Shown: positions 1 to 18,980 of the stretch, piece after piece
Layout of the letters: each line of letters begins with the position of its first letter
Numbering within the stretch: the first letter of the stretch is position 1
Assembly: GCF_902153245.2 (NCBI RefSeq)
Contig: NZ_CABFWF030000012.1
Coordinates: forward strand, 188,501 to 252,500
Source of the DNA: Pseudorhizobium endolithicum
GTDB lineage: Bacteria; Pseudomonadota; Alphaproteobacteria; Rhizobiales; Rhizobiaceae
Direction: 5' to 3'
Length of the DNA stretch: 64,000 nt
Translations under genes and position numbers: made by a program
Notes under the pieces: model-generated
What the model was told of the DNA's origin: nothing
The model's input: only the letters and a program-made list of their open reading frames with translations
Databases searched by the model: none

Positions 1-19
1 TAATTGTCAACTGGTGGAA

Positions 20-44
20 GGAACGAATGCTGCGTCGCTCCATT
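20..44 (+). promoter_or_regulatory. EcfG-type promoter of glgX
   Basis: GGAAC at 20-24, a 16-base spacer and CATT at 41-44 match the alphaproteobacterial EcfG consensus (GGAAC, 18-19 bases, TT). The glgX ATG lies 29 bases downstream. Confidence 0.7.
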
Positions 45-72
45 GTTAGGGAGTTACGCACAGGGGCGACGC

Positions 73-2148
73 ATGAAATCCGAAAACCAGTCCTTCACAA
101 TCCAGCCCGGCAGTTGGTCCGAGCTCGGCGCGACGTATGATGGCGATGGCACCAATTTCGCGATCTTCTCGGCCCACGCGGAGCGGGTGGAGCTATGCCT
201 CTTCGACAGCACGGGCACCAGGGAGATCGCGCGGCTCGAGCTTCCCGAATATACGCACGAGATCTGGCATGGATATGTCCCCGGCCTTAGGCCCGGTGCG
301 CTGTATGGCTACCGCGTTTACGGCCCTTTCGAGCCGGAGAACGGCCACAGGTTCAACCCGAACAAGCTGGTGATCGACCCATACGCCCGCGAACTCGTGG
401 GGGATGTGAACTGGAACGAGGCACACTTCGCCTATGATTTGCTGCATGAGGACAAGGACCTCACCTTCGACGAGCGCGACAGCGCGCCGTTCATGCCCAA
501 GTGCCGGGTAACGGACCCGAACGGCTTCGACTGGCACGATGCGACCCGGCCCAACATCTCCTGGCCCTCGGCAATTGTCTATGAAACGCACGTGAAAGGC
601 TTCACGCAGCTCAACCCGGCCATCCCTCAGGAGTTGCGGGGAACGTTCGAGGGCATGGGCCACAAGGCAAGCGTCGACTACATCAAGAGCCTGGGCATCA
701 CATCCGTCGAATTGATGCCCGTCCATTACTTCCCGGATGACCAGCATCTGCTGGACAAGGGGCTGCACAACTTCTGGGGCTACAACACCCTCGGATTCTT
801 CGCACCCGCTCCCCGCTATTACGGGTCGCGCGGTCTGGAGGGCTTCCGGGAGATGGTCCGCAACTTCCACGACGCGGGGATCGAGGTGATCCTCGACGTC
901 GTCTACAACCATACCGCCGAAGGCAACGAACTCGGGCCAACCCTGTCCTTCAAGGGGATCGACAACTTCTCCTACTACAGGACCATGCCCGACCAGCACC
1001 GGTACTACATCAACGATACCGGCACCGGAAACACGGTCAACACTTCGCATCCGCGGGTCCTGCAGATGATCATGGATTCGCTGCGCTACTGGGTGCAGCA
1101 CATGCATGTCGACGGCTTCCGCTTCGACCTCGGCACGATTCTCGGCCGGGAGCCGGCGGGTTTTGACGAGCGGGGCGGCTTCTTCGACGCCGTAACGCAG
1201 GATCCGGTGCTCTCGAAGGTCAAGCTGATCGGCGAGCCTTGGGACATAGGTCCGGGTGGATATCAGGTCGGCGGCTTTCCCCCCGGCTGGGCGGAGTGGA
1301 ATGATAAGTACAGGGATACCGTTCGCGAGTACTGGATGGGCGTCAACGTCTCGACCGACTTCGCCGCCCGCCTTCTAGGCTCCGGCGATATCTACGACCT
1401 GCGCGGCCGGCGCCCCTGGGCAAGCGTCAATTTCATCGCGGCCCATGACGGCTTTACCCTCAACGACCTCGTCTCCTACAACGAGAAGCACAACGAGGCG
1501 AACGGCGAGGACAACAACGACGGTCACAACGACAACCGCAGCTTCAACTACGGCGCCGAAGGCCCTACGGACGACGAGGGCATCAACGACGTCCGCGAGC
1601 GCCAGAAGCGCAACTTCCTGGCGACGCTCTTCCTGTCGCACGGTACGCCGATGCTGCTCGCCGGCGACGAGTTCGGCCGCAGCCAGATGGGCAACAACAA
1701 CGGCTACTGCCAGGACAGCGAGATCTCCTGGGTCCACTGGGAGAACCTTCCCGATGCGAACGAGCAACTGCGAGAGTTCACTCGCCAGATCATCGCGCTG
1801 AGAAAGGCGCAGCCGATCTTCCGGCGCGAGAGCTGGCGCGACGGCATGGAGGTCCGCTGGTTCAACGCGGGAGGCGGCGAGCAGCTTCCGGAACAGTGGC
1901 AGGAGGGGACGACACTGGGCCTCAACCTCCGCCGTGCGGATCTTGCGGAGGAGGGGGTGTGGTCCAACGTCCTCGTGCTGTTCAATCCCTTCGAGGGAAC
2001 GGTTCCGTTCCATATTCCTCGGATCGGAGAGGGTCGGTGGGTGATGGAACTCACCACCGCCGACCCATCCCTCCATGGGGTGGAGGTTGAGCAGGATCAG
2101 GATTTCGAACTCGAAGGCAGGACCTTGGTGGTGATGCGACGCACCTGA
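73..2148 (+). CDS. glgX: Glycogen debranching enzyme GlgX
   Basis: This 691-residue protein hydrolyses alpha-1,6 branches of phosphorylase-limited glycogen in the cytoplasm. An N-terminal CBM48-like domain precedes a GH13 barrel. All four GH13 regions are visible: DVVYNH near residue 275, GFRFD with the nucleophile Asp near 352, GEPWD with the acid Glu near 388, and AAHDG with Asp near 459. The ATG at 73 is chosen because AGGGG lies about 8 bases upstream; the open frame extends further 5' through a TTG that would overlap the promoter. It converges on glgA, and an EcfG box puts it in the stress regulon. glgB, glgC and glgP are not in the window. Confidence 0.93.
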   Translation: MKSENQSFTIQPGSWSELGATYDGDGTNFAIFSAHAERVELCLFDSTGTREIARLELPEYTHEIWHGYVPGLRPGALYGYRVYGPFEPENGHRFNPNKLVIDPYARELVGDVNWNEAHFAYDLLHEDKDLTFDERDSAPFMPKCRVTDPNGFDWHDATRPNISWPSAIVYETHVKGFTQLNPAIPQELRGTFEGMGHKASVDYIKSLGITSVELMPVHYFPDDQHLLDKGLHNFWGYNTLGFFAPAPRYYGSRGLEGFREMVRNFHDAGIEVILDVVYNHTAEGNELGPTLSFKGIDNFSYYRTMPDQHRYYINDTGTGNTVNTSHPRVLQMIMDSLRYWVQHMHVDGFRFDLGTILGREPAGFDERGGFFDAVTQDPVLSKVKLIGEPWDIGPGGYQVGGFPPGWAEWNDKYRDTVREYWMGVNVSTDFAARLLGSGDIYDLRGRRPWASVNFIAAHDGFTLNDLVSYNEKHNEANGEDNNDGHNDNRSFNYGAEGPTDDEGINDVRERQKRNFLATLFLSHGTPMLLAGDEFGRSQMGNNNGYCQDSEISWVHWENLPDANEQLREFTRQIIALRKAQPIFRRESWRDGMEVRWFNAGGGEQLPEQWQEGTTLGLNLRRADLAEEGVWSNVLVLFNPFEGTVPFHIPRIGEGRWVMELTTADPSLHGVEVEQDQDFELEGRTLVVMRRT

Positions 2149-2165
2149 GGCGGACGCAGACGAAA

Positions 2166-2188
2166 GGAACCCCGCGCTGCGGGGTTCC
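2166..2188. terminator. Hairpin between convergent glgX and glgA
   Basis: A perfect 10-bp stem (GGAACCCCGC with GCGGGGTTCC) around a 3-base loop lies between the two convergent stop codons. There is no good T tract, so termination is inferred from position and stem strength. Confidence 0.6.
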
Positions 2189-2214: not shown

Positions 2215-3780
2215 TCATCGAAGGGGGCCACGGACCGGGGAACTGGCAGCTTTACGGACCAGGCTGGCATAGACCGTTGCATACTGCTGGGCGCTGCGAT
2301 CCCAGGAGAACTTTGCTTTCATTCCCTGGTTCTGGAGCCGGGCCCATTGCTTCGGATCCTGGTAGACGTGCAAGGCACGGCGCAGCGCCATGCGCAGCCC
2401 GTCGACAGTCACCGGATGGAACTGAAACCCCGTCGCCACCCGCGCGGACATGGCGGCGTCGTTTGCATCAATGATCGTCTCGGAAAGACCGCCAGTGCGG
2501 GAGACCACGGGCACGGCACCGTAACGCAGGGCGTAAAGCTGGGTCAGGCCGCAGGGCTCGAACCGCGATGGCTGCACGATCGCATCCGAACCACCATGGA
2601 TGAGGTGGGCGGTCGGTTCGTCATAACCGATGCGGACGGCCATCCGCCCTGGATGGCGGCCGGCCACCTCCATCAGCTGCTGCTCGATTGCATGATCCCC
2701 CTGACCGAAGACAATCAGCTTGCCGCCGTTCCAGATGATCTCGTCGGCCGTTTCGGCCAGCATGTCCATGCCCTTCTGCCACGTAAGGCGGCTGACAGCA
2801 GAGAAGACCGGGCCTGCGTCCTGGGCGTCGAGACCAAATTTCCCGAGGAGCGCCATTCGGTTCGCCCGCTTTCGCTTGAGGCTCGTTGCATCGTAGGTCA
2901 CGGGCAGGTGCGGATCGGCAGCGGGATTCCACACGTCGAGGTCGATGCCGTTGACTATCCCCCTTAAGGCCGCTACGCGCTCATTCAATACCCCGTCCAT
3001 ACCCATGCCGAAGCGAGGCGTCAGGATTTCGCGTGCATAGGTGGGGCTCACGGTCGTGATGACGTCGGATGTCCGCAGGCCACCCTTCAGGTAGCTGATG
3101 TCCCCAAAGTACTCCAGGCAATCCATCGAGTACAGGTCCGGTCTCAACCCCAGTGCCGGCAGGAGACCGGCAGGGAACTGGCCTTGGAAGGCGATATTAT
3201 GGATCGTCAATACCACCGGGGTCGGCAGCGACATCTCGCGCATGTAGACGGAGGTCAGCGCGGTCTGCCAGTCATGGGTATGAACCAACTCGGGGATCCA
3301 GCCGGGAAGCGCGCCATCGGCAAGTTCCGCAGCCGCGAGGCTGAGGACCGCGAAACGCTTCCAGTTGTCGGAATGGTCGATCCCGCCGGAGTTCACGTAT
3401 GGCCCACCCTCTCTCAGGTAGAGCGCCGGGCAATGCAGTGCGAAAATGCTCAAACCATCGACCCGCCCGTAGAGCAGCGACGCCCGTTCTCCCAGCAGGT
3501 CATCGAAAAGCAGAAGAGGAGGGGCGCTGCCGAGCTTTTGCAGCACGGCCGGATAGCCGGGAACCAGGGTGATGGTTTCGATTCCGCAACGTTGCAGCGC
3601 CTTTGGCAGGGACCCGGTTACGTCGGCAAGCCCCCCCGTCTTGACCAGGGGGAAGACCTCCGAAGTGACGGAAAGCACCTTCATGGGCGAGATGCTTGGC
3701 GTTCGCGTCACCTGACGCAGAAAGTCGTCCGCAAAGCTCCCCGTCGGGAAGGGTTCAGGCGAGAAAAACGCGTTGGTCAT
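2215..3780 (-). CDS. glgA: Glycogen synthase GlgA (GT5)
   Basis: This 521-residue enzyme transfers glucose from ADP-glucose to growing alpha-1,4 glucan. The GT5 signature KTGGLADV occurs near residue 47, and the C-terminal Rossmann half has the SRFEPCGL motif near residue 400. Two starts are possible. The ATG at 3780 has GGAGG six bases upstream and is chosen; the ATG at 3684, where canonical GlgA proteins begin (MKVLSVTSE), has no ribosome-binding site. The chosen start adds a 32-residue, Phe- and Pro-containing extension. An EcfG box lies 36 bases upstream of the chosen start. Convergence with glgX suggests joint control of glycogen under stress. Confidence 0.93.
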   Translation of the reverse strand: MTNAFFSPEPFPTGSFADDFLRQVTRTPSISPMKVLSVTSEVFPLVKTGGLADVTGSLPKALQRCGIETITLVPGYPAVLQKLGSAPPLLLFDDLLGERASLLYGRVDGLSIFALHCPALYLREGGPYVNSGGIDHSDNWKRFAVLSLAAAELADGALPGWIPELVHTHDWQTALTSVYMREMSLPTPVVLTIHNIAFQGQFPAGLLPALGLRPDLYSMDCLEYFGDISYLKGGLRTSDVITTVSPTYAREILTPRFGMGMDGVLNERVAALRGIVNGIDLDVWNPAADPHLPVTYDATSLKRKRANRMALLGKFGLDAQDAGPVFSAVSRLTWQKGMDMLAETADEIIWNGGKLIVFGQGDHAIEQQLMEVAGRHPGRMAVRIGYDEPTAHLIHGGSDAIVQPSRFEPCGLTQLYALRYGAVPVVSRTGGLSETIIDANDAAMSARVATGFQFHPVTVDGLRMALRRALHVYQDPKQWARLQNQGMKAKFSWDRSAQQYATVYASLVRKAASSPVRGPLR

Positions 3781-3815: not shown

Positions 3816-3841
3816 AACGGGAAGGGAGGCACATGCGTTCC
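3816..3841 (-). promoter_or_regulatory. EcfG-type promoter of glgA
   Basis: On the minus strand GGAAC (3841-3837), 17 bases, CGTT (3819-3816) is an exact EcfG consensus. The distance to the ATG at 3780 leaves room for a short leader. Confidence 0.8.
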
Positions 3842-3939: not shown

Positions 3940-4194
3940 TCAGTCTTGTTTCGGCGGCTTCTTGGCGCCTTTTGATCCAGCCTTTTTCGGCGCAGGCGAC
4001 GATGACGCCAAGGAGCCTTTGGCCGCAGCGGCTGCCGAAGTGCGCGAGGCTCTTTTCGGCTTGTCTGCACGGAACGCCGCCAGTTCCTGTCGAGCCTTTT
4101 CCCAATGCTCGGCATGCTTCCCGGATGGACGCCCTTCTTCCTCCCAAAGCGAGTAGGCTCGCCTGCGAATCCATTCGTCCTCGTTGTCCGCCAT
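3940..4194 (-). CDS. DUF2934 family protein with basic tail
   Basis: This 84-residue protein starts with a short helical segment (DEWIRRRAYSLWEEEGRPSG, then KHAEHWEKA) that matches the DUF2934 family, common in rhizobia and without known function. The second half is rich in Ala, Lys, Ser and Pro and ends in a lysine-rich tail, which could bind nucleic acid (inference). The ATG at 4194 is chosen because GGAG sits six bases upstream; the frame is open further upstream without support. An exact EcfG box precedes it, so it is a likely stress protein. It is a separate unit from glgA, whose promoter lies after this stop. Confidence 0.8.
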   Translation of the reverse strand: MADNEDEWIRRRAYSLWEEEGRPSGKHAEHWEKARQELAAFRADKPKRASRTSAAAAAKGSLASSSPAPKKAGSKGAKKPPKQD

Positions 4195-4283: not shown

Positions 4284-4308
4284 GGAACTTTTGGTCCCGC
4301 CGGGAGTT
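4284..4308 (+). promoter_or_regulatory. EcfG-type promoter of the 72-residue protein gene
   Basis: Plus strand GGAAC (4284-4288), 16 bases, AGTT (4305-4308). It is back to back with the DUF2934 promoter, 38 bases apart. Confidence 0.65.
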
Positions 4309-4332
4309 TGCACGCGCTGAAGGAGGATCATC

Positions 4333-4551
4333 ATGAACAAGTACTGTGACATCATCCCGCACTGCGATGGATGGACCTACGTCCTGAACGGGGTCGAAGC
4401 AGGCTGCACGTTTCATACCTATGAACTTGCGGTGGAGGCCGCAAAGCGGCAACTGCTCCGGGAGCAGCGGGACCGGGTCTTCCGGCAAAAGGGACTGAAC
4501 GGGGAGATGCTGCCGATCAGGCCGCCGGCGTTTCCTCAGGCCTCTTTCTGA
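4333..4551 (+). CDS. Small protein resembling DUF2188
   Basis: This 72-residue protein has the pattern DGWTYVLNGVEAGCTFHTYELAVEAA, which resembles the short DUF2188 fold (a small sheet in which a residue run is read against a repeated Ala-rich helix); the assignment is tentative. There is no signal peptide or membrane segment. The start is firm: AAGGAGGATCATC precedes the ATG. It has its own EcfG box and its own rho-independent terminator, so it is a monocistronic stress gene. Function is unknown. Confidence 0.75.
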   Translation: MNKYCDIIPHCDGWTYVLNGVEAGCTFHTYELAVEAAKRQLLREQRDRVFRQKGLNGEMLPIRPPAFPQASF

Positions 4552-4625: not shown

Positions 4626-5123
4626 TCAGGCTGCCTTCTGCGCCGCGGCGTTGACGGCGGACTCGGCCAGTCCGGTCAGTGTCTCGTCCGTCTTGCTTTC
4701 TTCCGCGAGGGTTTCCTCCAGAAGACGCACGGCGTCCTTCAGGCCGAGTTGCTGAGCCCAGGCGCGCAGCGTGCCGTAGCGGCTGATCTCGTAATGTTCG
4801 ACCGCCTGCGCAGCAGCGAGGAGACCGGCGTCGAGAGCTGGGGTGCCCTTGAACTCTTCGAGGATCTCTTCACCCTCTTCGATGATGCCGTCGATCGCCG
4901 GGCAGGTCTTGCCGCGGGCGCGCTTGCCGATGATTTCGAAGACTTCCTTCAGCCGCTCGATCTGGCCTTCGGTTTCTTCCTTGTGTTGCTGGAAGGCGGC
5001 CTTCAGCTTCTCGTCCTGAGCGCCGCGAGCCATCTTCGGCAGAGCCTTCACAATCTGGCGCTCCGCATAATAGATGTCCTTCAGCGTCTCGTAGAACAGG
5101 TCGTCGAGGGTCTTGCTAGCCAT
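4626..5123 (-). CDS. DUF892 ferritin-like protein (YciE/YciF type)
   Basis: This 165-residue, nearly all-helical protein begins with TLDDLFYETLKDIYYAERQI and ends in an Ala-rich tail, the pattern of the DUF892 ferritin-like family. Paired carboxylates and histidines (E21, the HKEETE segment near 66, VEHYE near 120) fit a di-iron helix bundle; iron binding is inference. YciF-type proteins are stress-induced in enterobacteria. The ATG has AGGAG upstream, and an exact EcfG box lies 42 bases before the start. Confidence 0.88.
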   Translation of the reverse strand: MASKTLDDLFYETLKDIYYAERQIVKALPKMARGAQDEKLKAAFQQHKEETEGQIERLKEVFEIIGKRARGKTCPAIDGIIEEGEEILEEFKGTPALDAGLLAAAQAVEHYEISRYGTLRAWAQQLGLKDAVRLLEETLAEESKTDETLTGLAESAVNAAAQKAA

Positions 5124-5198: not shown

Positions 5199-5381
5199 CT
5201 ATTGCCTGAAGGTCGTCTGACGGCCGCCTTCAGGCTTGTCGTAGAGGCGCTCAACAGCCTCTTCCTGGCGAAGCTTTTCAGCCGCCCCGAGGCGTCGACG
5301 ACGCATCAGCCCGTAGGCGATGACGATACCGAGAAGGACCGGTCCCAGCGCTACGATGATGAACCAAAGCTTGTCGGCCAT
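5199..5381 (-). CDS. Small single-span membrane protein
   Basis: This 60-residue protein has one hydrophobic segment (residues 5-25, LWFIIVALGPVLLGIVIAYG) followed by an RRRR cluster and a charged C-terminal tail, so an inside C-terminus is likely. GGAGA lies six bases before the ATG. It follows the BON gene by 21 bases on the same strand and is read as the second gene of that stress operon. I do not recognise a named family. Confidence 0.75.
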   Translation of the reverse strand: MADKLWFIIVALGPVLLGIVIAYGLMRRRRLGAAEKLRQEEAVERLYDKPEGGRQTTFRQ

Positions 5382-5402
5382 GGATATCTCCTCTCCTCGA
5401 GA

Positions 5403-5795
5403 TCAGTGGCGCTCGGCGGAGACGGTAAGCCGATTGTTGCAGCCCGTCACTCCGGCCACGGCCATTGCGCATTCCTCGGCGCGCCGGGCGTCCGCCTCGC
5501 GGGCCACCGAGCCCGTTAACGAGACCACACCGTCGTTGACCTCGACCATGATGTTCGTCGGATCGAGAAATGCATCCTGCGTCAGCGCCTCGTTGACCGC
5601 TGCCTGGACCTGATCGTCGGGTCGATCGTATCCAGCAGGGGCTACGTCGCGCTTTTTCTCCTGGCCCTCGTTCTCCGCGAAGATGTTCGCCTCTCCCTGC
5701 AGATAGCCGCTCGGACGGTTTTCCGCCGGGCCCTCCCAGCGGGGCCATTGCGAGGTTTCGCCGGGGCGACCGGGTTTCGGCTGTTCGTGTTTCAT
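5403..5795 (-). CDS. BON-domain protein
   Basis: The 130-residue product has a Pro/Gly-rich, disordered-looking N-terminal 60 residues and one BON domain (residues 60-128): DDQVQAAVNEAL, then IMVEVNDGVVSLTGSVA and the GVTGCNNRL end. BON domains bind phospholipid or other envelope components and occur in osmotic-shock proteins such as OsmY. There is no signal peptide, so a cytoplasmic or membrane-surface role is possible. GGAGAAACGCC precedes the ATG. It heads a two-gene operon with the 60-residue membrane protein. Confidence 0.88.
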   Translation of the reverse strand: MKHEQPKPGRPGETSQWPRWEGPAENRPSGYLQGEANIFAENEGQEKKRDVAPAGYDRPDDQVQAAVNEALTQDAFLDPTNIMVEVNDGVVSLTGSVAREADARRAEECAMAVAGVTGCNNRLTVSAERH

Positions 5796-5830: not shown

Positions 5831-5856
5831 AACCTGCTGACGGCCTCGAAGGTTCC
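5831..5856 (-). promoter_or_regulatory. EcfG-type promoter of the BON operon
   Basis: Minus strand GGAAC (5856-5852), 17 bases, GGTT (5834-5831). It lies just upstream of the BON gene and partly in the intergenic gap after the hydrolase stop at 5859. Confidence 0.65.
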
Positions 5857-5858: not shown

Positions 5859-6443
5859 CTACGCCCACCAATCCAGCACGTCCGGGACACTCGAAAGACG
5901 AAGCTGGGAGGAGAAACGGGTGCCGTAGAGCTCCAGTGTCGCATCATGGGTCTGGTCGGAAGTGCTGCAGATGGCGTCCTTGAGCAGGGTGATCGAGTAG
6001 CCGAGATCGACGGCCCCCATGACCGCAGCTAGGACGCAGACGTCGGTCTCTCCCCCGGATATGATGAGCGATGTCACCTCCTGTTCCTGCAGGAACCGGT
6101 GAAGCCGCCCGTCGAGCCAGGGAGAATAGATGGTCTTGTCGAATACTGTTGCTGGCGGCACCAACGCGCGCAGTTCCGGTAGGATATCCACCATTTCGTC
6201 CCCAAGGATGGCTCGCGTCATCATCGGCCATTTGCGGTAGTAGTCCCGCCACGTCCCTTGTCTGTCCTCCGCCTGCACCGGTGGAATAAACCGTGTAAAT
6301 ACGGTCTCCGCCGGATGTGCTGCCGCCAAGCGGGCAACCGGGCCCCGCACCTTGTCCATCCAGGGAACGTTCCACGGGGTGTCTTCCGCGAACATGCGCT
6401 GCATGTCGACGCACAGGTGACGACACCGAAGTGGATCTTCCAT
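5859..6443 (-). CDS. Isochorismatase-like cysteine hydrolase
   Basis: This 194-residue protein belongs to the isochorismatase/nicotinamidase fold. The catalytic triad can be read: Asp in VDMQRMF near residue 14, Lys in FDKTIYSPW near residue 102, and Cys in the SGGETDVCVLA motif near residue 135. The natural substrate (an amide, carbamoyl or similar group) cannot be deduced. AGGAGGAGC is placed well before the ATG. It is monocistronic, with an exact EcfG box 28 bases upstream. Confidence 0.88.
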   Translation of the reverse strand: MEDPLRCRHLCVDMQRMFAEDTPWNVPWMDKVRGPVARLAAAHPAETVFTRFIPPVQAEDRQGTWRDYYRKWPMMTRAILGDEMVDILPELRALVPPATVFDKTIYSPWLDGRLHRFLQEQEVTSLIISGGETDVCVLAAVMGAVDLGYSITLLKDAICSTSDQTHDATLELYGTRFSSQLRLSSVPDVLDWWA

Positions 6444-6963: not shown

Positions 6964-8084
<1,121 letters not shown>

Positions 8085-8088: not shown

Positions 8089-10629
8089 CTAACGCTTTCG
8101 CCTTGTCTTCCCCGCAACCGTGATTTCGGCCTCCGCCGCGCGGAAATCCGCCCATGGATCGTTTCCGAGTTGCTCAAGGCGGGCTACGGCATTGTTCACG
8201 GTGAAGTAGGCGGGTCCGATGGCTCCGCCCAATTCCTCCCACGCCACCGGCATGGAGACCGGCGCGCCGGCTCGGGCGCGTGTGGAATAGGGCGCCACCG
8301 CCGTCGCTCCCCGCCCGTTGCGCAGGTAATCGATGAGGATCTTGCCCTTGCGTTTGGATTTGGTGATCGTGGAGACGTAGCGGTCGGGACTGTCGCCCGC
8401 CATGCTGTCGGCCAGCGCCTTCATGGCGGCCTTCACGTCCGGCCATTCTGCCTTCGGTTTCACCGGAGCGACCACATGCAGTCCCTTGCCGCCTGAGGTT
8501 TTGACAAATCCGGCCAAACCCATGGCTTCGAAACGCGCTTTCACTTCGTGCGCGGCGGCAATGACGTCATCCCACGTGGTCCCTTCGCCCGGATCGAGGT
8601 CGATGTTGACCATGTCCGGCTTCTCCCAGCGATCGATGGTCGATCCCCAGGGATGAATTTCCAGCGTACCGCCCTGCACCAGGCCCAGAAGCCCGTCCAG
8701 GTCGTGGATGACGATGTCCTCCTCTGAAGGATCGGCCGGGTCCTTCGCCGTCCTGATCTGCTTGTTCATGCCTTTCCAGGCGTGCTTCTGGAAGAACAGC
8801 GCCTTGCCGATCCCGTCCGGTCCACGCACCAGGGCGAGAGGCCGGTTGACGACATAGGGCGCCATGAAGCGCCAGACCTGGATATAGTAGTCCGCAAGCC
8901 CCGCCTTGGTCACGCCCGCCTCCGGCCAGTATACCCTGTCGGGATGGGTCAGGTTGACGGTGCGCCTGGCCGGATCCTCCGGAGGCTCGGCTTTTGCTTC
9001 CATGGGACCTGTCTCCCGGATCACGTCGCGGGCCAGCTTGTCCTCCCTGAGGCCCCGGTAAGCCGCATGGCGGATGTGGGAATCCGCCGTCCACCCACGG
9101 AACTCCACCTCTGCCACCAGTTCAGGCTTCAGGAAGACGACATCCTTCTTCTCCACACCCGTCAGCTTCTCTCCGAAAGGGCTCCTGTCGGTCCGCAGAT
9201 CCTGCAACTGGCGGAAGAGCGATTGCGCGACCTTGTTACTGTAACCCGTGCCCACGCGGCCGGCATGCTTCAGCGTGTCGCCATCGTAGTAACCCATGAC
9301 CAGCGAGCCGATCGCATTGCTGGAGACGGACGAGGGGACATAGCCGGCGACCACGAACTCCTGCCGCGCAGAACATTTCGACTTGACCCAATCCCGGCCC
9401 CGACCGCCGCGATAGGGAGCATCGCCGATCTTCGAGATGATCCCCTCCAGGCTCAGGCGGCAGGCATGCTTGAGGACGAGCCCGCCTTCGTCGCCGAAGT
9501 GCTCGCTGTATCTCAGCACGGCCGCGCAGTCCGCGAGAATGGCTTCCAGTGCCTGCTTTCTGTCCAGGAGCTTCGCGCCGGTGAGATCATTTCTATCAAG
9601 GTGGAGGAGATCGAAGGCGAAGAAGACGAAGCGGTTCGTGCGGCCTTCGCTCAGGTCCTGTTGGAGGAGGGAGAAATCCGTTGCCCCCGATCCGCCATTG
9701 ACCACGATTTCGCCGTCTATGATCGCCTGCTTGACCGGCAGTTGCCTGAGCGCGTCGACGATTGGCTTGCCGAACTTGTGTGTCCAATCCAGGCCTGTCC
9801 GCGTCAGCAACCGGACATCGCCGCCATCGATGCGTGCCTGAAGCCGATAACCGTCGAGCTTGATCTCGTGGATCCAGCGTTTGCCGGACGGGGCGCCCTT
9901 CACCAGCGTTGCAAGCTGCGGAGCAACGAAGTCCGGCAGGTTGGCCTTTCGTGCACCTTTGATCTTCTGTATATCGGGTGTGACGGGACCGTTGAGTTCC
10001 TTGTCCGTCGGAGGTTGGACGCCCGTTGCGGTTGTTCTTTTCTTCGCAAGCTTCTTGGGCGCTTTCCCGCCCTGGAGTTCCTCGATCACGCGTCCGGTCT
10101 TCACGGACTTCGGGAGTTCCTCGAGGATGTCCGGATCGCTCTCGGCTCGGGCAAACTCGTCCTCGCCCTTTATGAGCAGCCAGTTCTCGCGCTTCTCGCC
10201 CCTGCGATTGGCCATCTTCACCAGGTGCCATCGGCCCCGCAGTTTTTCGCCCTCGAGCTCGAATTCCATGTGGCCCTTCCTGTAGGCCTTGTGAGGATCT
10301 CCGGTTGCGCTCCAGGTGCCGCGGTCCCAGAGCAGGACGGCGCCGGCGCCGTAATTGCCTTCGGGTATGACGCCTTCGAAGCCGCCGTAGTCCAGCGGAT
10401 GATCCTCCACATGGACCGAAAGCCTCTTTTCTCCCGGCACGAGGCTCGGGCCGCGGGTGACCGCCCAGCTTTTCAGAACGCCATCCATCTCGAGCCGGAA
10501 GTCATAGTGAAGCCGGCGCGCCGCATGCTTCTGGATGACGAAGCTCTTTCCGCCCGCTTTCGCTCTTTTTCCCTTGGGTTCGGGAGAAACAGTGAAGTCG
10601 CGTTTCTCATTGTAGGTTTCGAGCGCCAT
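8089..10629 (-). CDS. ligD: Multidomain ATP-dependent DNA ligase LigD
   Basis: This 846-residue NHEJ enzyme has the domain order phosphoesterase, ligase, polymerase. Residues 1-180 hold the 3'-phosphoesterase (RRLHYDFRLEMDG near 39-51, DHPLDYGGFEG near 77). The ligase runs from about 230 to 530, with the adenylated Lys257 in EIKLDGYR. The primase-type polymerase runs from about 555 to 835, with the metal-binding pair Asp677 and Asp679 in NIDLDPGEG. It starts 2 bases after the stop of ku2 on the same strand, so the two are one operon under the ku2 promoter. Confidence 0.95.
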   Translation of the reverse strand: MALETYNEKRDFTVSPEPKGKRAKAGGKSFVIQKHAARRLHYDFRLEMDGVLKSWAVTRGPSLVPGEKRLSVHVEDHPLDYGGFEGVIPEGNYGAGAVLLWDRGTWSATGDPHKAYRKGHMEFELEGEKLRGRWHLVKMANRRGEKRENWLLIKGEDEFARAESDPDILEELPKSVKTGRVIEELQGGKAPKKLAKKRTTATGVQPPTDKELNGPVTPDIQKIKGARKANLPDFVAPQLATLVKGAPSGKRWIHEIKLDGYRLQARIDGGDVRLLTRTGLDWTHKFGKPIVDALRQLPVKQAIIDGEIVVNGGSGATDFSLLQQDLSEGRTNRFVFFAFDLLHLDRNDLTGAKLLDRKQALEAILADCAAVLRYSEHFGDEGGLVLKHACRLSLEGIISKIGDAPYRGGRGRDWVKSKCSARQEFVVAGYVPSSVSSNAIGSLVMGYYDGDTLKHAGRVGTGYSNKVAQSLFRQLQDLRTDRSPFGEKLTGVEKKDVVFLKPELVAEVEFRGWTADSHIRHAAYRGLREDKLARDVIRETGPMEAKAEPPEDPARRTVNLTHPDRVYWPEAGVTKAGLADYYIQVWRFMAPYVVNRPLALVRGPDGIGKALFFQKHAWKGMNKQIRTAKDPADPSEEDIVIHDLDGLLGLVQGGTLEIHPWGSTIDRWEKPDMVNIDLDPGEGTTWDDVIAAAHEVKARFEAMGLAGFVKTSGGKGLHVVAPVKPKAEWPDVKAAMKALADSMAGDSPDRYVSTITKSKRKGKILIDYLRNGRGATAVAPYSTRARAGAPVSMPVAWEELGGAIGPAYFTVNNAVARLEQLGNDPWADFRAAEAEITVAGKTRRKR

Positions 10630-10631: not shown

Positions 10632-11492
10632 TCAGCCTGCCTTCCGTTGCGGCTGGGTGCCGGTCTTCGGCTTGCGGGCCGGCTTCTTGGCCGCGGACGC
10701 CTTCTTGCTACGTTTTGCATCGGCGCCGGCGCTCTGGCGAAGGGCATCGAGCAGGTTCGAAACCTTCTTCGGCTCCGGCTTCGGCTTCTTCGCCAGCTTG
10801 CGCCCCTCGATCTTCGCCTTGATCAAATCGGCAAGCGCCGTCTCGTAGCGGTCGTCGAATTCGGTCGGATCGAACTTGCCTTTCTTGGTGCCGATGATGT
10901 GCCGGGCGAGGTCGAGCATTTCGCCCTCGATCTTGAACTGGGCTATATCCGAGAATACCTCGCTGGCAGGCCTGACCTCATAGTCGTAGTTGAGAGTGCT
11001 GGCGATCAGGCCCTGATCCGTCGGGCGGATCAGCAACGTACGCAGTCTGCGAAACAAAACGGTCCGGGCAAGCGCCGCGACATTCTTCTCCTCCAGCCCC
11101 TTGCGGATCAGCGAGTAGACCTCGGTTGCCGCCTTGTCTGCCGGTGCAAGATAATAGGGACGATCCAGAAAGATCGTGTCCACCTCGCCGCAGGGAATGA
11201 AGCTTTCCAGTGCGAGCGTCTTGTCACTGTCGGGCACCGCCGCCTTGATCTCCTCCGGTTCGAGGATGACATACTGGCCGCTCGCGACTTCATAGCCCTT
11301 TACGATGTCCTCGTTATCCACTTCACGGCCGGTATCGGCATCGACGAGCTGGCGATGGACGCGATGCCCCGTCTCCCGGTTGACGATATGAAAACTGACG
11401 CGGTCGGCGGTCGAAGCGGCGGTATAGAGCGCCACCTGGCAGCTCAACTCTCCTACCTTGAGATAGCCCTTCCAGTTTGCTCTCGGTGCCAC
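10632..11492 (-). CDS. ku2: Ku protein (NHEJ), second copy
   Basis: This 286-residue Ku begins MAPRANWKGYLKVGEL and carries the core LDRPYYLAPADK and YEVRPASEVF segments, followed by a long Lys/Ala/Pro-rich tail from about residue 225 (DNA-binding extension). The start codon is GTG with GGGGAG nine bases upstream. It forms an operon with ligD. The symbol ku2 only marks the second copy here. It is the better match to the long-tailed Ku proteins that pair with LigD; the EcfG box suggests induction in stress or stationary phase, when no sister chromosome is available. Confidence 0.92.
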   Translation of the reverse strand: MAPRANWKGYLKVGELSCQVALYTAASTADRVSFHIVNRETGHRVHRQLVDADTGREVDNEDIVKGYEVASGQYVILEPEEIKAAVPDSDKTLALESFIPCGEVDTIFLDRPYYLAPADKAATEVYSLIRKGLEEKNVAALARTVLFRRLRTLLIRPTDQGLIASTLNYDYEVRPASEVFSDIAQFKIEGEMLDLARHIIGTKKGKFDPTEFDDRYETALADLIKAKIEGRKLAKKPKPEPKKVSNLLDALRQSAGADAKRSKKASAAKKPARKPKTGTQPQRKAG

Positions 11493-11594: not shown

Positions 11595-11620
11595 GGAACC
11601 AAAGGCGTGAACGGCGCGTT
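11595..11620 (+). promoter_or_regulatory. EcfG-type promoter of the ECF sigma-sodC operon
   Basis: Plus strand GGAAC (11595-11599), 17 bases, CGTT (11617-11620), an exact match. The -10 element overlaps the TTG at 11620 that opens the reading frame, which rules that start out. Confidence 0.8.
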
Positions 11621-11664: not shown

Positions 11665-12171
11665 GTGTCTGAATCACAGTTGAATCGTGATCCTGCACGC
11701 GCAGACATAGTAAAGCTTATTCCCGCTCTCCGCGCGTTTGCCCGCACCTTCTGCCGCAATCCCACGGATGCCGACGATCTTGTTCAGGAAACGCTGATGA
11801 AGGCCCTGGCGAATCTCGACAAGTTCGAGCCCGGGACGAAGCTGAAGTCCTGGCTGTTCACCATCATGCGCAACACCTTCTACACCCGTTCCAAGGTGCT
11901 TGGCCGGGAGGCGCCGGGCATGGACGAGCCGGTGTCCGGAGATTCTCCGATGCCGGCGACCCAGGAGGTGAGTGCGCGCGCCAAGGAAGTGCAGCGCGCC
12001 CTGCAGAAACTGCCGCCGCATTACCGCGAGGTGCTGACGCTCGTGGCGATCCTCGGCGAGAGCTACGAGACGACCGCAGAAATTTGCGACTGTGCCGTCG
12101 GCACCGTCAAAAGCCGGCTGAACCGGGCACGGCACCAGATCCTGCTGGAGCTCGGCGAAGAGCCGGTGTGA
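11665..12171 (+). CDS. ECF sigma factor, EcfG-like paralogue
   Basis: This 168-residue sigma-70 family protein has region 2 (residues 20-85: DADDLVQETLMKAL, then LKSWLFTIMRNTF) and region 4 (105-160: LPPHYREVLTLVAILGESYETTAEICDCAVGTVKSRL written in two pieces here for brevity). Its closest relative in the window is EcfG at 48616 (shared CAVGT(V/I)KSR). The GTG at 11665 is the chosen start, with GGAGAGG upstream. It has no anti-sigma gene beside it and is followed by sodC. It is itself preceded by an exact EcfG box, so it may be a second tier of the stress cascade. Confidence 0.87.
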   Translation: MSESQLNRDPARADIVKLIPALRAFARTFCRNPTDADDLVQETLMKALANLDKFEPGTKLKSWLFTIMRNTFYTRSKVLGREAPGMDEPVSGDSPMPATQEVSARAKEVQRALQKLPPHYREVLTLVAILGESYETTAEICDCAVGTVKSRLNRARHQILLELGEEPV

Positions 12172-12198: not shown

Positions 12199-12708
12199 AT
12201 GGCAGGCAGATTGGTGGCAGCATTCGCGGCGGCGGCTTTCTTCGGCAGCGGCGCCACGGCTCAGGAGACGACAGCCACGGCAAAGTTCATCGGCGCGGAC
12301 GGGGCCGAGGTCGGAACCGCAACGCTGACCGCGACGCCAGCCGGCGTTCTGGTCGAAGCCGAGGTTTCCGGACTGCCCGCGGGCCAGTGGGTCGGCTTCC
12401 ATTTTCACGAGAACGGGACGTGCGATCACCAGAGCGGCCACGAGAGTGCAGGTGGACATTTCAATCCCCAGGGCAAGGAACACGGATACAGATCGGCCGG
12501 CGGCCCCCATGCGGGCGATATGCCCAATCAATATGTCGACGCCGAAGGCGTGCTGCGCGCCCAGGCCTTCAACACCTTCGTTTCTCTCGATCAGGGCGCC
12601 AACAGCGTCAAGGGGAAGTCGCTGATGATCCATGGCGGGTCCGACGACTACCAGAGCCAGCCCTCCGGCAAGGCAGGGGATCGTCTGGCCTGCGCAGTCA
12701 TCCAATAG
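12199..12708 (+). CDS. sodC: Periplasmic Cu/Zn superoxide dismutase (SodC type)
   Basis: This 169-residue protein has a signal peptide (residues 1-21, ending ATAQ). The SodC fold is recognisable from FHFHENGTCDH (copper ligands HxH near 74), SAGGHFNP near 93, GPHAGDMPN near 109 and MIHGGSDDY near 141. It would convert superoxide to hydrogen peroxide in the periplasm. The C-terminal Cys in LACAV can form the family disulphide with Cys in GTC. It lies 27 bases after the sigma gene with GGGAGG upstream, so the pair is one operon. Confidence 0.88.
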   Translation: MAGRLVAAFAAAAFFGSGATAQETTATAKFIGADGAEVGTATLTATPAGVLVEAEVSGLPAGQWVGFHFHENGTCDHQSGHESAGGHFNPQGKEHGYRSAGGPHAGDMPNQYVDAEGVLRAQAFNTFVSLDQGANSVKGKSLMIHGGSDDYQSQPSGKAGDRLACAVIQ

Positions 12709-12722: not shown

Positions 12723-13445
12723 TCAGCGATCGAGGTCCAGTTCGGGGTAATGGCGGAAGATGCCGGATTCGTTGAAGGCCGGCCTCCTGTCGGACTGAAG
12801 GTAGGCCCAGATATTCGGCCGCTTCTTCACCGCCTCTGCAAGCGCCGCCACCGCCGGCCAATCTGTCTCCACGTCGCGCATCGCGTTCGGAAACGCGTAT
12901 CGAAGCCCCTCGACAACCTGAAACAGGGACAGATCGACATAACTGGTCTCATTCCCGACCAGATGGGTCGGGCCGGTCGGACTGGCGCTCAGGATCTTCT
13001 CGAAATAGCCCATGAATTTGGGCAGCCTGGACTGAATGAACCGGCGTGACCTCATCTTTGCCTCGTCCTTCTGGTCCTCATAATAGGCGTCCATTCCCAG
13101 AGGATGATGGGTATCGTGAATCTCCGTGACGAAGTCGGCGATGGTCAGTTGCAGGCCATGCGCAAAGGATCGGGCGTCCTCGCCGGCAGGTGCGAGGTTC
13201 AGTTTCGGCCCGAGATGCCGCAGGATGTTGGCGACATGCGAGATCACCCGGTCGCCATCCTTCAGGAAGGGCGGTGCGAATGGTATCTGATGGCCATGCT
13301 TCCCTTCCAGGAACGCCGTCATCTTCTCCGTACCGCCTGGCTCACGGGCGACGTCCCGGTACGATGCACCGGCGTCCTCAAGGACCAGCCTGACGAACGC
13401 GCCGCGGCCCTGGATGCCGTCCCAATAGTACAGCTCATAGGTCAT
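12723..13445 (-). CDS. Glutathione S-transferase family protein
   Basis: This 240-residue cytosolic protein has the GST N-terminal thioredoxin fold (MTYELYYWDGIQGRG, with Tyr residues at the usual glutathione site) and an all-helical C-terminal domain (from about 90). The segment DRVISHVANILRHLG around residues 62-76 occupies the place of the glutathione-binding E/S motif. The substrate is unknown. GGAGG precedes the ATG at 13445. It lies 16 bases after the udgX stop and is read with it. Confidence 0.85.
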   Translation of the reverse strand: MTYELYYWDGIQGRGAFVRLVLEDAGASYRDVAREPGGTEKMTAFLEGKHGHQIPFAPPFLKDGDRVISHVANILRHLGPKLNLAPAGEDARSFAHGLQLTIADFVTEIHDTHHPLGMDAYYEDQKDEAKMRSRRFIQSRLPKFMGYFEKILSASPTGPTHLVGNETSYVDLSLFQVVEGLRYAFPNAMRDVETDWPAVAALAEAVKKRPNIWAYLQSDRRPAFNESGIFRHYPELDLDR

Positions 13446-13461: not shown

Positions 13462-14097
13462 TCACGAGACATAGTTTGCGATCTGCCGCAACTCGTCAAT
13501 GAACCGCTGCCTCTCCTGGGCGGACTCCGGCCTGTCCATGGTTCTGAGGAGAGCAGAGGGATGAATGGTGACGAGCACCGACAGGCCGTCGGGCGCCTGC
13601 AGGACCCTGCCCCCGTCCCGGGTCACTTTGGCGTCCTTCCCCAGGAGGGAAAACAAGGCGGTTGCTCCAAGCGCGACCACGAGGGACGGACGGATGATGC
13701 GAAGCTCTGCTGCAAGCCACCACGCACAGGCCCTTGTTTCGCCGGCATTGGGCTTGGCGTGTATCCGCCGCTTGCCGCGGGGGGTGAACTTGAAGTGCTT
13801 CACGGCATTGGTGACGTAGCAGCGGGTACGGTCCACGTCAGCCTCCTCCAGGCATCGGTCCAGCAGCCGGCCGGCCGGTCCGACGAAGGGTCGGGCCGCG
13901 AGGTCTTCCTTGTCGCCCGGCTGTTCTCCGACGAGTACCACATCCGCATCGGGCGACCCTTCGCCGAACACGACATGGGTCGCGTGCCTGTAGAGGTCGC
14001 AGCGCGTACAGTCCTCGGCAATTGTACGAACGGCATGCAGATCGTCGCCAGGTTGACCGGGGGTCTGGAACGCCGGCCCCGCATGGTTGGATTCCAT
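13462..14097 (-). CDS. udgX: UdgX-type uracil-DNA glycosylase
   Basis: This 211-residue member of the family-4-like uracil-DNA glycosylase group carries the UdgX hallmarks: GEQPGDKEDLAARPFVGPAG (57-76) and the KRRIH loop (109-113). In mycobacterial UdgX the His of KRRIH attacks the abasic site and leaves the enzyme covalently bound to uracil-containing DNA. Cys30, Cys33, Cys93 and Cys124 can ligate a 4Fe-4S cluster, and HPSALLR lies near 180. The ATG at 14097 is chosen for its GGAGG. It heads an operon with a GST under an EcfG box, so it is a stress-linked repair gene. Confidence 0.92.
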   Translation of the reverse strand: MESNHAGPAFQTPGQPGDDLHAVRTIAEDCTRCDLYRHATHVVFGEGSPDADVVLVGEQPGDKEDLAARPFVGPAGRLLDRCLEEADVDRTRCYVTNAVKHFKFTPRGKRRIHAKPNAGETRACAWWLAAELRIIRPSLVVALGATALFSLLGKDAKVTRDGGRVLQAPDGLSVLVTIHPSALLRTMDRPESAQERQRFIDELRQIANYVS

Positions 14098-14169: not shown

Positions 14170-14194
14170 GGAACTTTCAGCCGAGCGATGGGTT
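14170..14194 (+). promoter_or_regulatory. EcfG-type promoter of gcd
   Basis: Plus strand GGAAC (14170-14174), 16 bases, GGTT (14191-14194). It is divergent from the udgX promoter. Confidence 0.65.
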
Positions 14195-14257: not shown

Positions 14258-16603
14258 ATGGCTATTGTGATCACCACGATCGTTATGGGGCTTCTCGGGT
14301 TGGCCCTGACCGCCGGCGGCGCCTATCTCGTGAGCCTCGGCGGGAGCGTCTACTACCTCATTACCGGGATTGCCTTCATCCTCACCGCCGTCCTGCTCTA
14401 CATGCGGCGGCCACTTGCCCTTCTCGTCTACGCGCTCATCGTCGTCGGTTCGCTCGCATGGGCGATTTGGGAAGTGGGGTTCGACTGGTGGCAGCTTGGC
14501 CCGCGCGGCGGCGTGATCGTTCTGCTCGGGCTGTGGTTGCTGACGCCTTGGGTCAGGAAGCCGTTGGGTTTCCAAAGCCCAACCGGAAATCGCTATCCGG
14601 TCGGTGCGACGCCGCTGGCAGTCTCGATCATGCTGGCGATCATCATCGCCGTTGGCTCCATGTTCACCGATCCCTACCGTATCGATGGCGAGCTTCCGGA
14701 GGAATCCGTCGCTGCGGCGCCCGCAATGGGCAATGCTGTGCCGCCCGGGGAATGGCATCAGTACGGACGAACAAACTATGGCCAGCGCTATTCGCCCCTG
14801 GACCAGATTACCGTGGAGAATGTCGACCAACTCGAGGAGGTCTGGCGGTACCAGACCGGAGACGTGAAGCTTCCGGAAGATGTCGGGGAAACCACTTATC
14901 AGGTCACGCCGCTGAAGGTCGGAAACAGCCTCTACCTCTGCACTCCCCATAACTGGGCCATCGCGATCGACGCCACCACGGGCGAGGAGAAGTGGAAGTT
15001 CGATCCGAACGCGGGGCTCAATCCCGACCGGCAGCACCAGACCTGCAGGGGGGTGACCTATTATGCCGATTCTGCCGCACAGCCCGGCGCACCATGCTCG
15101 CAACGTGTCTATCTGCCGACGTCGGACGCCCGGCTCATCGCCTTGGATGCAGCCAACGGTCAGGTCTGCCCCTCCTTCGCCGATCAGGGAACGCTGAGGC
15201 TTGAGGCCGGTATGCCCTACAATCCGGCCGGATACTATTATTCGACCTCTCCTCCCGTAGTTGCCGGCGGGAAGATCATCATCGGAGGGGCCGTCAACGA
15301 CAACTATTCGGTACGTTCCCAGTCGGGAGTCATCCGCGCCTTCGACGTCGATACGGGAGAACTTGTCTGGAACTGGGATTCCGGTAACCCGACCCAAACG
15401 ACACCCTTGCCGCCCGGTCAGACCTACACGCCCAATTCCCCCAACAGTTGGTCGGTGTTCAGCGTCGATGAAGAACTGGGGCTCGTCTATATTCCGCTCG
15501 GCAACCAGGTTCCCGACCAGTTGGGGATGGGCCGCAGCGAATCCGTCGAGAAATACTCGTCCTCGATCGTCGCGCTCGATATCAATACTGGCGCGGATCG
15601 GTGGGTATTCCAGACGGTACACCACGATCTGTGGGACATGGACGTGCCTGCGCAGCCGGTCCTGCTCGATCTTGCGCAGGAGGACGGAACCATGGTGCCC
15701 GCGCTGGTCGGGCCGACCAAGCAGGGCGACATCTACGTTCTCGACCGCCGGACGGGCGAGCCGATTATCGACGTAACGGAGGAACCTGCTCCGGGTGGCG
15801 CGATACCGGAAGACTTCACCGCCCCGACCCAGCCGACTTCTGCACTGACGTTCAAGCCGGAACCGCTGCAGGAAAAGGACATGTGGGGTATCTCCATGTT
15901 GGACCAGATGGTGTGCCGCATCCGGTTCCACCAGTTGAACTATGAGGGCCGGTATACACCCCCGTCGCTGAACGGGACGCTCGTCTATCCCGGCAATTTC
16001 GGCACGTTCAACTGGGGTAGTGTCGCCGTCGATCCGGAACGGCAGGTGATGTTCGGAATGCCCACCTATCTTGCCTTTACCGTGCGGCTGGTCCCCCGCG
16101 AGGAGATCCCGCCGAAGGGCGCGGACGAGAAGGGAAGCGAACAGGGGCTGAACCGCAACGAAGGAGCACCCTACGGCGTCTATATGGGGCCGTTCCTGGG
16201 CCCGCTTCAGATTCCGTGCCAGGCACCGCCATGGGGCTATGTCGCAGGAGCGGATCTACGCACGGGCGAAATCGCTTACAAGCGTCGCAACGGAACGGTC
16301 TACGACATGACGCCCCTGCCGCTGTCGTTCAAGGTTGGGGTCCCGGGTATAGGGGGGCCGATGATCACGAAAGGTGGCGTGGCCTTCCTTGGGGCGGCCG
16401 TCGATAACTATCTGCGCGCCTATGACCTCACCACCGGTGAACAGCTTTGGCGCGCTCGGCTGCCGGCCGGTGGACAAGCCACTCCCATGACTTATGCAGT
16501 CGACGACGGGCGCCAGTTCGTGGTGATGGTCGCTGGCGGTCACGGCTCCGTCGGGACGAAGCCGGGCGACTATATCATTGCCTATGCGTTGCCTCGCAAC
16601 TGA
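14258..16603 (+). CDS. gcd: Membrane PQQ-dependent glucose dehydrogenase
   Basis: The 781-residue quinoprotein oxidises glucose (and similar aldoses) to gluconate in the periplasm and passes electrons to ubiquinone. Five hydrophobic helices fill residues 1-135; the rest is a PQQ beta-propeller starting with EWHQYGRTNYGQRYSPL near 165. Repeated propeller motifs such as ATTGEEKWKFD (near 240) and FQTVHHDLWDMDVPAQP (near 455) and the end VMVAGGHGSVGTKPGDYIIAY are typical. The ATG at 14258 is chosen because the membrane domain starts there; AGGA is upstream. PQQ synthesis genes are not in the window. It has an EcfG box, unusual for a carbon-oxidation enzyme. Confidence 0.93.
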   Translation: MAIVITTIVMGLLGLALTAGGAYLVSLGGSVYYLITGIAFILTAVLLYMRRPLALLVYALIVVGSLAWAIWEVGFDWWQLGPRGGVIVLLGLWLLTPWVRKPLGFQSPTGNRYPVGATPLAVSIMLAIIIAVGSMFTDPYRIDGELPEESVAAAPAMGNAVPPGEWHQYGRTNYGQRYSPLDQITVENVDQLEEVWRYQTGDVKLPEDVGETTYQVTPLKVGNSLYLCTPHNWAIAIDATTGEEKWKFDPNAGLNPDRQHQTCRGVTYYADSAAQPGAPCSQRVYLPTSDARLIALDAANGQVCPSFADQGTLRLEAGMPYNPAGYYYSTSPPVVAGGKIIIGGAVNDNYSVRSQSGVIRAFDVDTGELVWNWDSGNPTQTTPLPPGQTYTPNSPNSWSVFSVDEELGLVYIPLGNQVPDQLGMGRSESVEKYSSSIVALDINTGADRWVFQTVHHDLWDMDVPAQPVLLDLAQEDGTMVPALVGPTKQGDIYVLDRRTGEPIIDVTEEPAPGGAIPEDFTAPTQPTSALTFKPEPLQEKDMWGISMLDQMVCRIRFHQLNYEGRYTPPSLNGTLVYPGNFGTFNWGSVAVDPERQVMFGMPTYLAFTVRLVPREEIPPKGADEKGSEQGLNRNEGAPYGVYMGPFLGPLQIPCQAPPWGYVAGADLRTGEIAYKRRNGTVYDMTPLPLSFKVGVPGIGGPMITKGGVAFLGAAVDNYLRAYDLTTGEQLWRARLPAGGQATPMTYAVDDGRQFVVMVAGGHGSVGTKPGDYIIAYALPRN

Positions 16604-16612
16604 GGAGAAAAG

Positions 16613-16924: not shown

Positions 16925-16954
16925 GGCAAATCCTCCAGCTGAGACTGGAGGATC

Positions 16955-16979
16955 AACGCGTGGCAGCAGGGTTGGTTCA
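16955..16979 (-). promoter_or_regulatory. Near-consensus EcfG box upstream of the small BON gene
   Basis: Minus strand TGAAC (16979-16975), 16 bases, CGTT (16958-16955). The first -35 base deviates. It overlaps the stop codon of the kinase. Confidence 0.35.
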
Positions 16980-18908: not shown

Positions 18909-18928
18909 TTAATGCATCATCCCCCTGG

Positions 18929-18945
18929 AACCGTGATCCACGGTT
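18929..18945 (-). promoter_or_regulatory. Leader hairpin before the hybrid kinase
   Basis: A perfect 7-bp stem (AACCGTG with CACGGTT, loop ATC) lies between the promoter and the start codon, in the expected mRNA leader. Its function is unknown. Confidence 0.4.
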
Positions 18946-18955
18946 AACCCAATAA

Positions 18956-18980
18956 AATGTCGGTTTCAGCCGTTTGTTCC
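18956..18980 (-). promoter_or_regulatory. EcfG-type promoter of the hybrid kinase
   Basis: Minus strand GGAAC (18980-18976), 16 bases, CATT (18959-18956). Confidence 0.65.

Follow-up and report, generated by a model that had tools for sequence, protein, structure and literature searches.

A 64,000-nt stretch of Pseudorhizobium endolithicum DNA very probably carries a conserved cluster of general-stress genes read from EcfG-type promoters, located on the same ~110-kb tract as phyR, nepR and ecfG, the core of the general stress response. The stretch, called the window below, is C12:188501-252500 (C12 is contig NZ_CABFWF030000012.1) of the 4.19-Mb draft genome G000. The PhyR-NepR-EcfG switch is established elsewhere. 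The initial annotation had described the first 19 kb of the window as a stress island of 14 transcription units, each behind its own promoter. The observation is confirmed, and it is stronger than the sequence of the window alone could show: about a quarter of the likely general-stress promoters of the genome lie in one 110-kb tract adjoining the master-switch genes, in what looks like real, conserved clustering.

Three forms of the promoter motif were counted: exact (GGAAC-N16/17-CGTT), loose (GGAAC-N16/17-NNTT) and refined (GGAACNWWN13/14NGTT). The refined form was tuned by eye on the sites of this window and was adopted because the exact motif alone has too much genome-wide background. The reversed motif served as control in the exact, refined and upstream scans. 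According to the available part of PMC3892343, GGAAC-N16-CGTT is the published motif of Rhizobium etli EcfG1 and precedes 19 of 56 EcfG1-dependent units. Conservation was followed in 20 ligD loci carrying island genes (L035-L050, L071, L073, L074, L076), chosen from 51 fetched; the closest ligD relatives were Neorhizobium and Pseudorhizobium. The 200 bases before each orthologue were examined, an orthologue being kept at 40% identity or more over more than half of the protein, a filter that retains the DUF2934 gene in 10 of the 20 loci; a looser filter was also applied, with the window's own row counted in. The genes and predicted EcfG-type promoters of the island, including those of its Ku-LigD non-homologous end joining (NHEJ) module and its extracytoplasmic function (ECF) sigma factor, are listed here with the fraction of relatives showing the motif.

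20..44 (+): glgX promoter, -10 CATT; 19/20, 27-31 nt from the start
73..2148 (+): glgX, glycogen debranching enzyme; Pfam CBM_48, Alpha-amylase
2215..3684 (-): glgA, second glycogen synthase copy; NCBIfam GlgA
3816..3841 (-): glgA promoter, exact CGTT; 17/20
3940..4194 (-): DUF2934 protein; Pfam PF11154
4220..4245 (-): DUF2934 gene promoter, exact CGTT; 10/10 kept, 20/20 under the looser filter
4284..4309 (+): promoter of the 72-residue gene; 16/16 having the gene
4333..4551 (+): 72-residue conserved protein; matches no family
4626..5123 (-): DUF892 protein; Pfam PF05974
5165..5189 (-): DUF892 gene promoter, exact CGTT; 19/19 kept
5199..5795 (-): BON-domain protein (5403-5795; Pfam BON) and 60-residue protein (5199-5381)
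5831..5856 (-): BON operon promoter; 12/12 kept
5859..6443 (-): isochorismatase-family cysteine hydrolase; Pfam PF00857
6471..6495 (-): hydrolase gene promoter, exact CGTT; 8/8 having the gene
6964..7152 (-): 62-residue protein, conserved in 20/20
7183..7208 (-): promoter of the 62-residue gene, exact CGTT; exact in 20/20
7227..7252 (+): ku1 promoter, exact CGTT; 20/20
7284..8084 (+): ku1, NHEJ protein Ku; NCBIfam TIGR02772, 290 bits
8089..10629 (-): ligD, NHEJ ligase-polymerase-phosphoesterase; Pfam; own promoter 0/20
10632..11492 (-): ku2, NHEJ protein Ku; NCBIfam TIGR02772, 275 bits
11520..11545 (-): ku2-ligD promoter; 20/20
11595..11620 (+): island sigma gene promoter, exact CGTT, 17-nt spacer; exact in 20/20, spacer 17 in 21/21 rows including the window
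11665..12171 (+): EcfG-like ECF sigma factor, paralogue of core EcfG; profile models and tree
12199..12708 (+): sodC, Cu/Zn superoxide dismutase; Pfam Sod_Cu; own promoter 0/5
12723..13445 (-): glutathione S-transferase (gst), second gene of the udgX operon; Pfam GST_C_3
13462..14097 (-): udgX, uracil-DNA-binding protein; NCBIfam TIGR03914, 273 bits
14116..14141 (-): udgX-gst promoter; 11/11 having udgX
14170..14194 (+): gcd promoter; 18/20
14258..16603 (+): gcd-type membrane-bound pyrroloquinoline quinone dehydrogenase; NCBIfam TIGR03074, 1171 bits
16977..18908 (-): PAS-PAS hybrid histidine kinase with receiver domain; Pfam
18955..18980 (-): PAS kinase gene promoter, -10 CATT; 18/19 kept

The loose motif was found before 208 of the 215 kept orthologues of 13 units, while the reversed motif preceded 1 of 215; under the looser filter the count was 231 of 239. 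Across the relatives the spacers diverge, and the -35 element, the -10 element and the distance to the start codon stay. The -10 class is specific to the unit: with the window included, the island sigma gene has CGTT in 21/21, ku2 has TGTT or GGTT in 21/21 and glgX has CATT or AATT in 19/20. Genes inside operons mostly lack the motif, as ligD and sodC do, and gst is preceded by it in 7 of 20 loci, including loci without udgX ahead of gst. Refined sites number 7-13 per locus in the 20 relatives and 0-3 in the other 31 loci fetched. The GGAAC-N16/17-CGTT-like elements upstream of the units match those of an EcfG general stress regulon, and the predicted promoters are of the EcfG type by sequence and keep a constant distance to the start codon across the 20 relatives. 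All 14 units that had been placed behind GGAAC-N16/17-NNTT were found there, each backed by the related loci, and so were the seven units credited with an exact CGTT, between 3816 and 11620.

The promoters of ku1 and of the 62-residue gene, whose product has a strongly conserved core, lie 18 bases apart in the window. In 13 of the 20 relatives (L039:13694-13695, L040, L042-L049, L071, L074, L076) they stand back to back with abutting -35 boxes, and therefore two polymerases may compete at this pair.

Ten exact matches were counted in the window, against 0.95 in shuffled sequences, and none of 100 shuffles reached ten. The initial annotation had expected about one and counted nine. Three exact sites add to the seven named: 46321 (+), 49455 (+, before phyR) and 51737 (-). 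The site at 51737 (-) fronts a predicted GsrN-like small RNA, with no protein gene found behind it. The loose form, with 35 matches in the window where 9.5 are expected per 64 kb, is common and, taken alone, is weak evidence. Positions 1-18980 hold 19 distinct loose sites, of which 14 are the claimed promoters, told from background because they are conserved in relatives. The other five are background or overlap:

2163 (-): palindrome followed by T's, between glgX and glgA
2708 and 3174: inside glgA
14114 (+): reverse face of the udgX promoter
14241 (+): overlapping the start of gcd

The commonness of the loose form is what speaks for reading the whole pattern as an accident of chance or base composition, or as the mark of another regulator such as LexA. 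The probability of this is close to nil, since conservation, the reversed-motif controls, the genome scan and the random placements described below all stand against it. Control by LexA was considered and rejected: a LexA-type repeat, GAAC-N7-GAAC, has four occurrences in the window, and none of them coincides with any of the 14 promoters.

Genome-wide, the exact motif gave 92 matches and its reverse 75; these matches are mostly background, and the exact motif alone was dropped as a genome-wide predictor of the regulon. The refined motif gave 85 matches against 25 for its reverse, and its NNTT form 160 against 85. Ten of the 85 refined sites lie in C12:192784-202694, while none of 20,000 random placements put ten sites in 10 kb. 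The result was the same (0/20,000) for lengths of 19, 60 and 112 kb, the last picked after the list was known, and after sites less than 150 bases apart were merged. No 19-kb stretch outside the tract equals the density of the first 19 kb, so that the genome scan proposed in the initial annotation as a refuting test came out in its favour. An overlapping 19 kb that starts left of the window, at C12:177666, likewise holds ten refined sites, and C12:129783-240261, about 110 kb or 2.6% of the genome, holds 24 of the 85, including those of the phyR-nepR-ecfG core and the GsrN-like RNA. Although the clustering stands, the extent first given to the island does not: the 19 kb are the densest slice of a tract that includes the stress-response core. 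The untuned exact motif also shows an excess, with 7 of 92 matches in the first 19 kb (0.4 expected from length) and 15 in the tract (2.4 expected), and the reversed refined control has one match in the 144 kb of C12:108501-252500. The runner-up outside the tract has six refined sites in 18.6 kb (C12:472130-490699). In the left part of the tract, sites lie before or near genes for an exo/endonuclease-phosphatase, a phospholipase-D protein, an LPG-synthase-like membrane protein, topoisomerase IB and an HWE kinase, and a cytochrome oxidase operon. The tract also holds L034:10018-11736 (+), a second HWE histidine kinase, which has a sub-threshold Cache-domain match and is a candidate stress sensor.

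The word island stands for the clustered layout and should not be taken to mean a mobile element. Horizontal acquisition of a mobile genomic island would fit the patchy spread of the island sigma factor: a cut-off of E<=1e-65 detects it in 11 of the 297 family genomes sampled and in 4 of 109 genera. It is nonetheless very improbable: G+C content is 61.5-64.3% across the 12-kb bins of C12:108501-252500 with no outlying bin among them, no tRNA was found in these 144 kb (integrases and direct-repeat ends were not searched), and the neighbours are shared in 20 loci.

The core of the response, at the far side of the window, has the full phyR-nepR-ecfG arrangement, nepR being assigned by position and a sub-threshold match; the sigma gene was named EcfG because of its place beside phyR. 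The features of this part are the following.

46321..46345 (+): exact EcfG-type site; a DUF883_C gene begins about 200 bases further on (46545); counterpart in Neorhizobium SOG26 at C1:2326880
48616..49179 (-): ecfG, core general-stress sigma factor; NCBIfam PRK12516, PRK12547 above cut-off
49176..49427 (-): nepR, probable anti-sigma factor; weak NCBIfam NepR, 23.6 bits (cut-off 100); 4-base overlap with ecfG
49524..50318 (+): phyR, anti-anti-sigma response regulator; Pfam PhyR_sigma2, PhyR_sigma-like, Response_reg
50587..51591 (+): HWE-family histidine kinase; Pfam PF07536
51622..51761 (-): predicted GsrN-like small RNA gene; exact EcfG-type promoter 51737-51761

The exact motif at 51737-51761 (-) precedes no protein gene found. 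The next 115 bases or so contain C-rich loops and a terminator-like stem, and the element recurs after the same promoter in 17 of the 20 regions examined in relatives. In one of the 17 (L154) the alignment row took a neighbouring site, and the same element is present in its sequence. A divergent form occurs in two more (G022 and G023, R. leguminosarum and R. bangladeshense), and the element was not found in the remaining one, G020. In position beside the core, promoter and C-rich loop it matches the GsrN-like RNAs predicted for the Rhizobiaceae in the available part of PMC5869019, and we predict that it is a small RNA of this kind. Rfam gave no match at gathering scores in the window, so that the prediction rests on conservation.

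The linkage between island and core was then compared in relatives. The distance between phyR and ligD is 36-62 kb in all 17 relatives with both on one contig. In Neorhizobium sp. SOG26 (G017), 24 of 77 refined sites (reversed control, 33 genome-wide) lie in C1:2326880-2440997, and gene-by-gene comparison showed this to be the same tract; in it the core is inverted with respect to the island. Replication position was considered as a cause of the clustering, but the GC skew of the SOG26 chromosome, measured in 20 sampled 10-kb stretches and the tract, was too noisy to place the origin or terminus. In the four outgroup genomes phyR and ligD are on separate contigs in three and 3.1 Mb apart by coordinate on the R. 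leguminosarum chromosome, where the densest 19 kb have six sites, five of them at the core. The sites of R. leguminosarum are scattered over its replicons. The statement of the initial annotation that the EcfG regulon is usually scattered is thus true of this species, a single outgroup genome being its basis here. In all six genomes of the genera g106, g84 and g81 phyR and the island sigma gene are on different contigs, and therefore linkage outside the genus is not shown. These results established the presence and conservation of the promoters, their clustering and the linkage of the cluster to the core.

The promoters may be real and their clustering functionless, with stress genes gathered in an insertion-tolerant segment and kept by common descent. 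We give this account, which is compatible with that of a conserved EcfG-type cluster, a probability a little short of even. It draws on internal rearrangement: core and island have opposite relative orientations in this genome and in SOG26, and the NHEJ module may be present or absent in the interval that separates the island sigma gene from the 62-residue gene. It has to face the retention of phyR-ligD linkage in 17 of 17 resolvable relatives, taken as a raw count. A bolder proposal is that in this genus the stress response has a chromosomal territory, with about a quarter of its promoters around the master switch, an EcfG-like sigma factor as relay, and selection keeping the proximity through a shared nucleoid region or joint inheritance. 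We put it forward tentatively and consider it improbable as it stands.

The sigma factor encoded within the island differs from that of the core. It scores 142 bits on PRK12547 (cut-off 219) and 139 on PRK12516 (cut-off 321); its best model gives 156 bits against a cut-off of 270, and among the 25 models listed it passes only the general sigma70-ECF one. It was named EcfG-like because it falls below the cut-offs of models that core EcfG passes. In the tree it belongs to a group of ten rows, two of them the same gene (support 83/98, not starred), and core EcfG to another group of ten (99/98); one long-branch row may disturb the tree. Neither the curated models nor the grouping place it with core-type EcfG. 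The gene is present in 20/20 clade loci, and R. leguminosarum yields no match at E<=1e-22 other than its core EcfG.

The island could be, for the most part, a regulon of the EcfG-like sigma factor that it encodes (11665-12171), with core EcfG only priming that factor, which in turn would read the promoters around it. Such a local module, which is compatible with the clustering, would account for the island sigma gene having the most invariant promoter, for its retention in every clade locus in a tree group of its own, and for its position beside parts of the same gene set in g106, g84 and g81. Two other EcfG-like sigma genes with an EcfG-type site about 50 bases upstream point the same way: one, with coordinates C1:1139303-1139770, in SOG26, as in the island, and the third such gene of P. 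endolithicum itself, C6:147370-147916 (-), with its site (-10 AATT) about 54 bases upstream. However, the same motif stands before core phyR, the GsrN-like gene and scattered genes elsewhere, and in the available part of PMC3892343 it is used by the core-type EcfG1 of R. etli. In G018 the sigma gene matches as two overlapping pieces in different frames (L100), and may be broken or misread, yet the island promoters persist there (L074). We regard a local module as possible, though on the whole unlikely. The SOG26 gene just mentioned lies in a second cluster of that genome, six refined sites in 7 kb (C1:1135652-1142594).

The reading of the island as an EcfG-type stress-gene cluster is supported up to the step of EcfG dependence; that EcfG reads the promoters we infer from the motif. 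PhyR, activated by stress, would release EcfG from NepR, and RNA polymerase with EcfG would fire about 14 separate promoters, each for one gene or short operon, and therefore the genes would be co-regulated without being co-transcribed. The island sigma factor, behind the most invariant promoter, could amplify the response by feed-forward through the same -35 element. The encoded proteins would ready non-growing cells for drying, oxidation and starvation. Ku and LigD, the latter with ligase, polymerase and phosphoesterase domains, make up a bacterial Ku-LigD NHEJ system and would provide template-free break repair; uracil-DNA binding (UdgX), superoxide dismutase, the DUF892 protein, which we take to be ferritin-like, glycogen synthesis and debranching, periplasmic glucose oxidation and a sensor kinase would complete the set. 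The island glgA is 57% identical to the other copy at C12:346902; two copies were found in 9/9 clade genomes searched and one copy in 3 of 4 outgroup genomes, and it is possibly a stress-dedicated paralogue.

The cluster appears to have grown by accretion, added genes bringing their own EcfG-type promoter. Graded versions, with 1-5 refined sites per locus, fit such growth. In g84, both loci are limited to the sigma gene together with gcd and glgA. The three loci from g106 share the sigma gene, DUF2934, glgA and glgX, to which the 62- and 72-residue genes, DUF892 and gcd are added in part. At the single g81 locus a sodC-like gene neighbours the sigma gene, and relatives of the 62-residue, BON and 60-residue genes lie farther off. 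A same-genus locus, L149, has most other island genes without Ku-LigD-Ku: its sigma gene adjoins the 62-residue gene (10271-10505), their divergent promoters separated by 30 bases, and its genome (G282) has only LigD paralogues of 45-46% identity, located elsewhere. Loss in L149 would be the other option. In g106 loci L144 and L145, too, Ku-LigD-Ku is missing between the sigma gene and the 62-residue gene, with both flanks kept.

Several points weigh against a conserved, core-linked EcfG cluster. The refined motif was tuned on window sites and favours them, and the exact-motif excess (15/92 in the tract) is smaller. Two of the 24 tract sites, C12:129783 and C12:238196 (within phyR), are inside genes and may not be promoters, and six-site clusters also occur elsewhere in this genome and in SOG26. 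SOG26 shares ancestry with the present genome and therefore shows retention, not independent origin. In 3 of 19 clade genomes phyR and ligD are on separate draft contigs, which leaves linkage undecided there, and it is not decidable in same-genus G282, which has no island-type LigD. In the open-licence literature no expression study of EcfG in this genus was found. Finally, R. etli EcfG2-dependent units are mostly without the EcfG1 motif (1/19) in the available part of PMC3892343, and therefore an EcfG-like paralogue need not share that motif.

The general stress regulon is of a known kind; the dense, core-linked and conserved layout is the new part, and no report of EcfG targets clustered around phyR was found in the open-licence literature. 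RpoE2 of Sinorhizobium meliloti is a member of the EcfG (ECF15) general stress systems. So far as their available descriptions go, the EcfG regulons of R. etli (EcfG1), S. melonis and Sphingopyxis share with the present one the motif, the core and overlapping targets. In the accessible parts of the reports, a ku gene belongs to the general-stress regulon of S. melonis (PMC6599016) and ku-ligD to that of Sphingopyxis (PMC7083833), and ku or ku-ligD, glgX and topoisomerase IB are EcfG-dependent in sphingomonads (PMC6599016, PMC7083833). The same excerpts on Sphingopyxis describe a -10 box that varies and a GGAAC that is kept, the authors suggesting a possible division of targets between two EcfG paralogues (PMC7083833). 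Unlike R. leguminosarum, with sites over its replicons, P. endolithicum gathers 24 of its 85 refined sites around the core, within 2.6% of the genome. As with EcfG2 of R. etli and Sphingopyxis, an extra EcfG-like sigma factor exists beside the canonical one; unlike those paralogues, it forms its own tree group, in a comparison that did not include R. etli EcfG2, and sits inside the target cluster behind an invariant EcfG-type promoter. The NHEJ of S. meliloti is reportedly stress-inducible, by the title of Dupuy 2019; it would resemble the present case in being under stress control, and here ku1 and ku2-ligD have separate EcfG-type promoters within a larger stress cluster. The acid fitness island of E. 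coli likewise places many genes for a single stress response side by side, but its regulator is of another type, and the present cluster lies 36-62 kb from the sigma-factor core to which it is linked.

Targets gathered around a sigma-factor core, each with its own promoter, offer a testable case of whether gene position matters in an operon-free global response. From the graded versions in related genera it may be possible to trace how such a cluster grew step by step, including the presence or absence of its NHEJ module.

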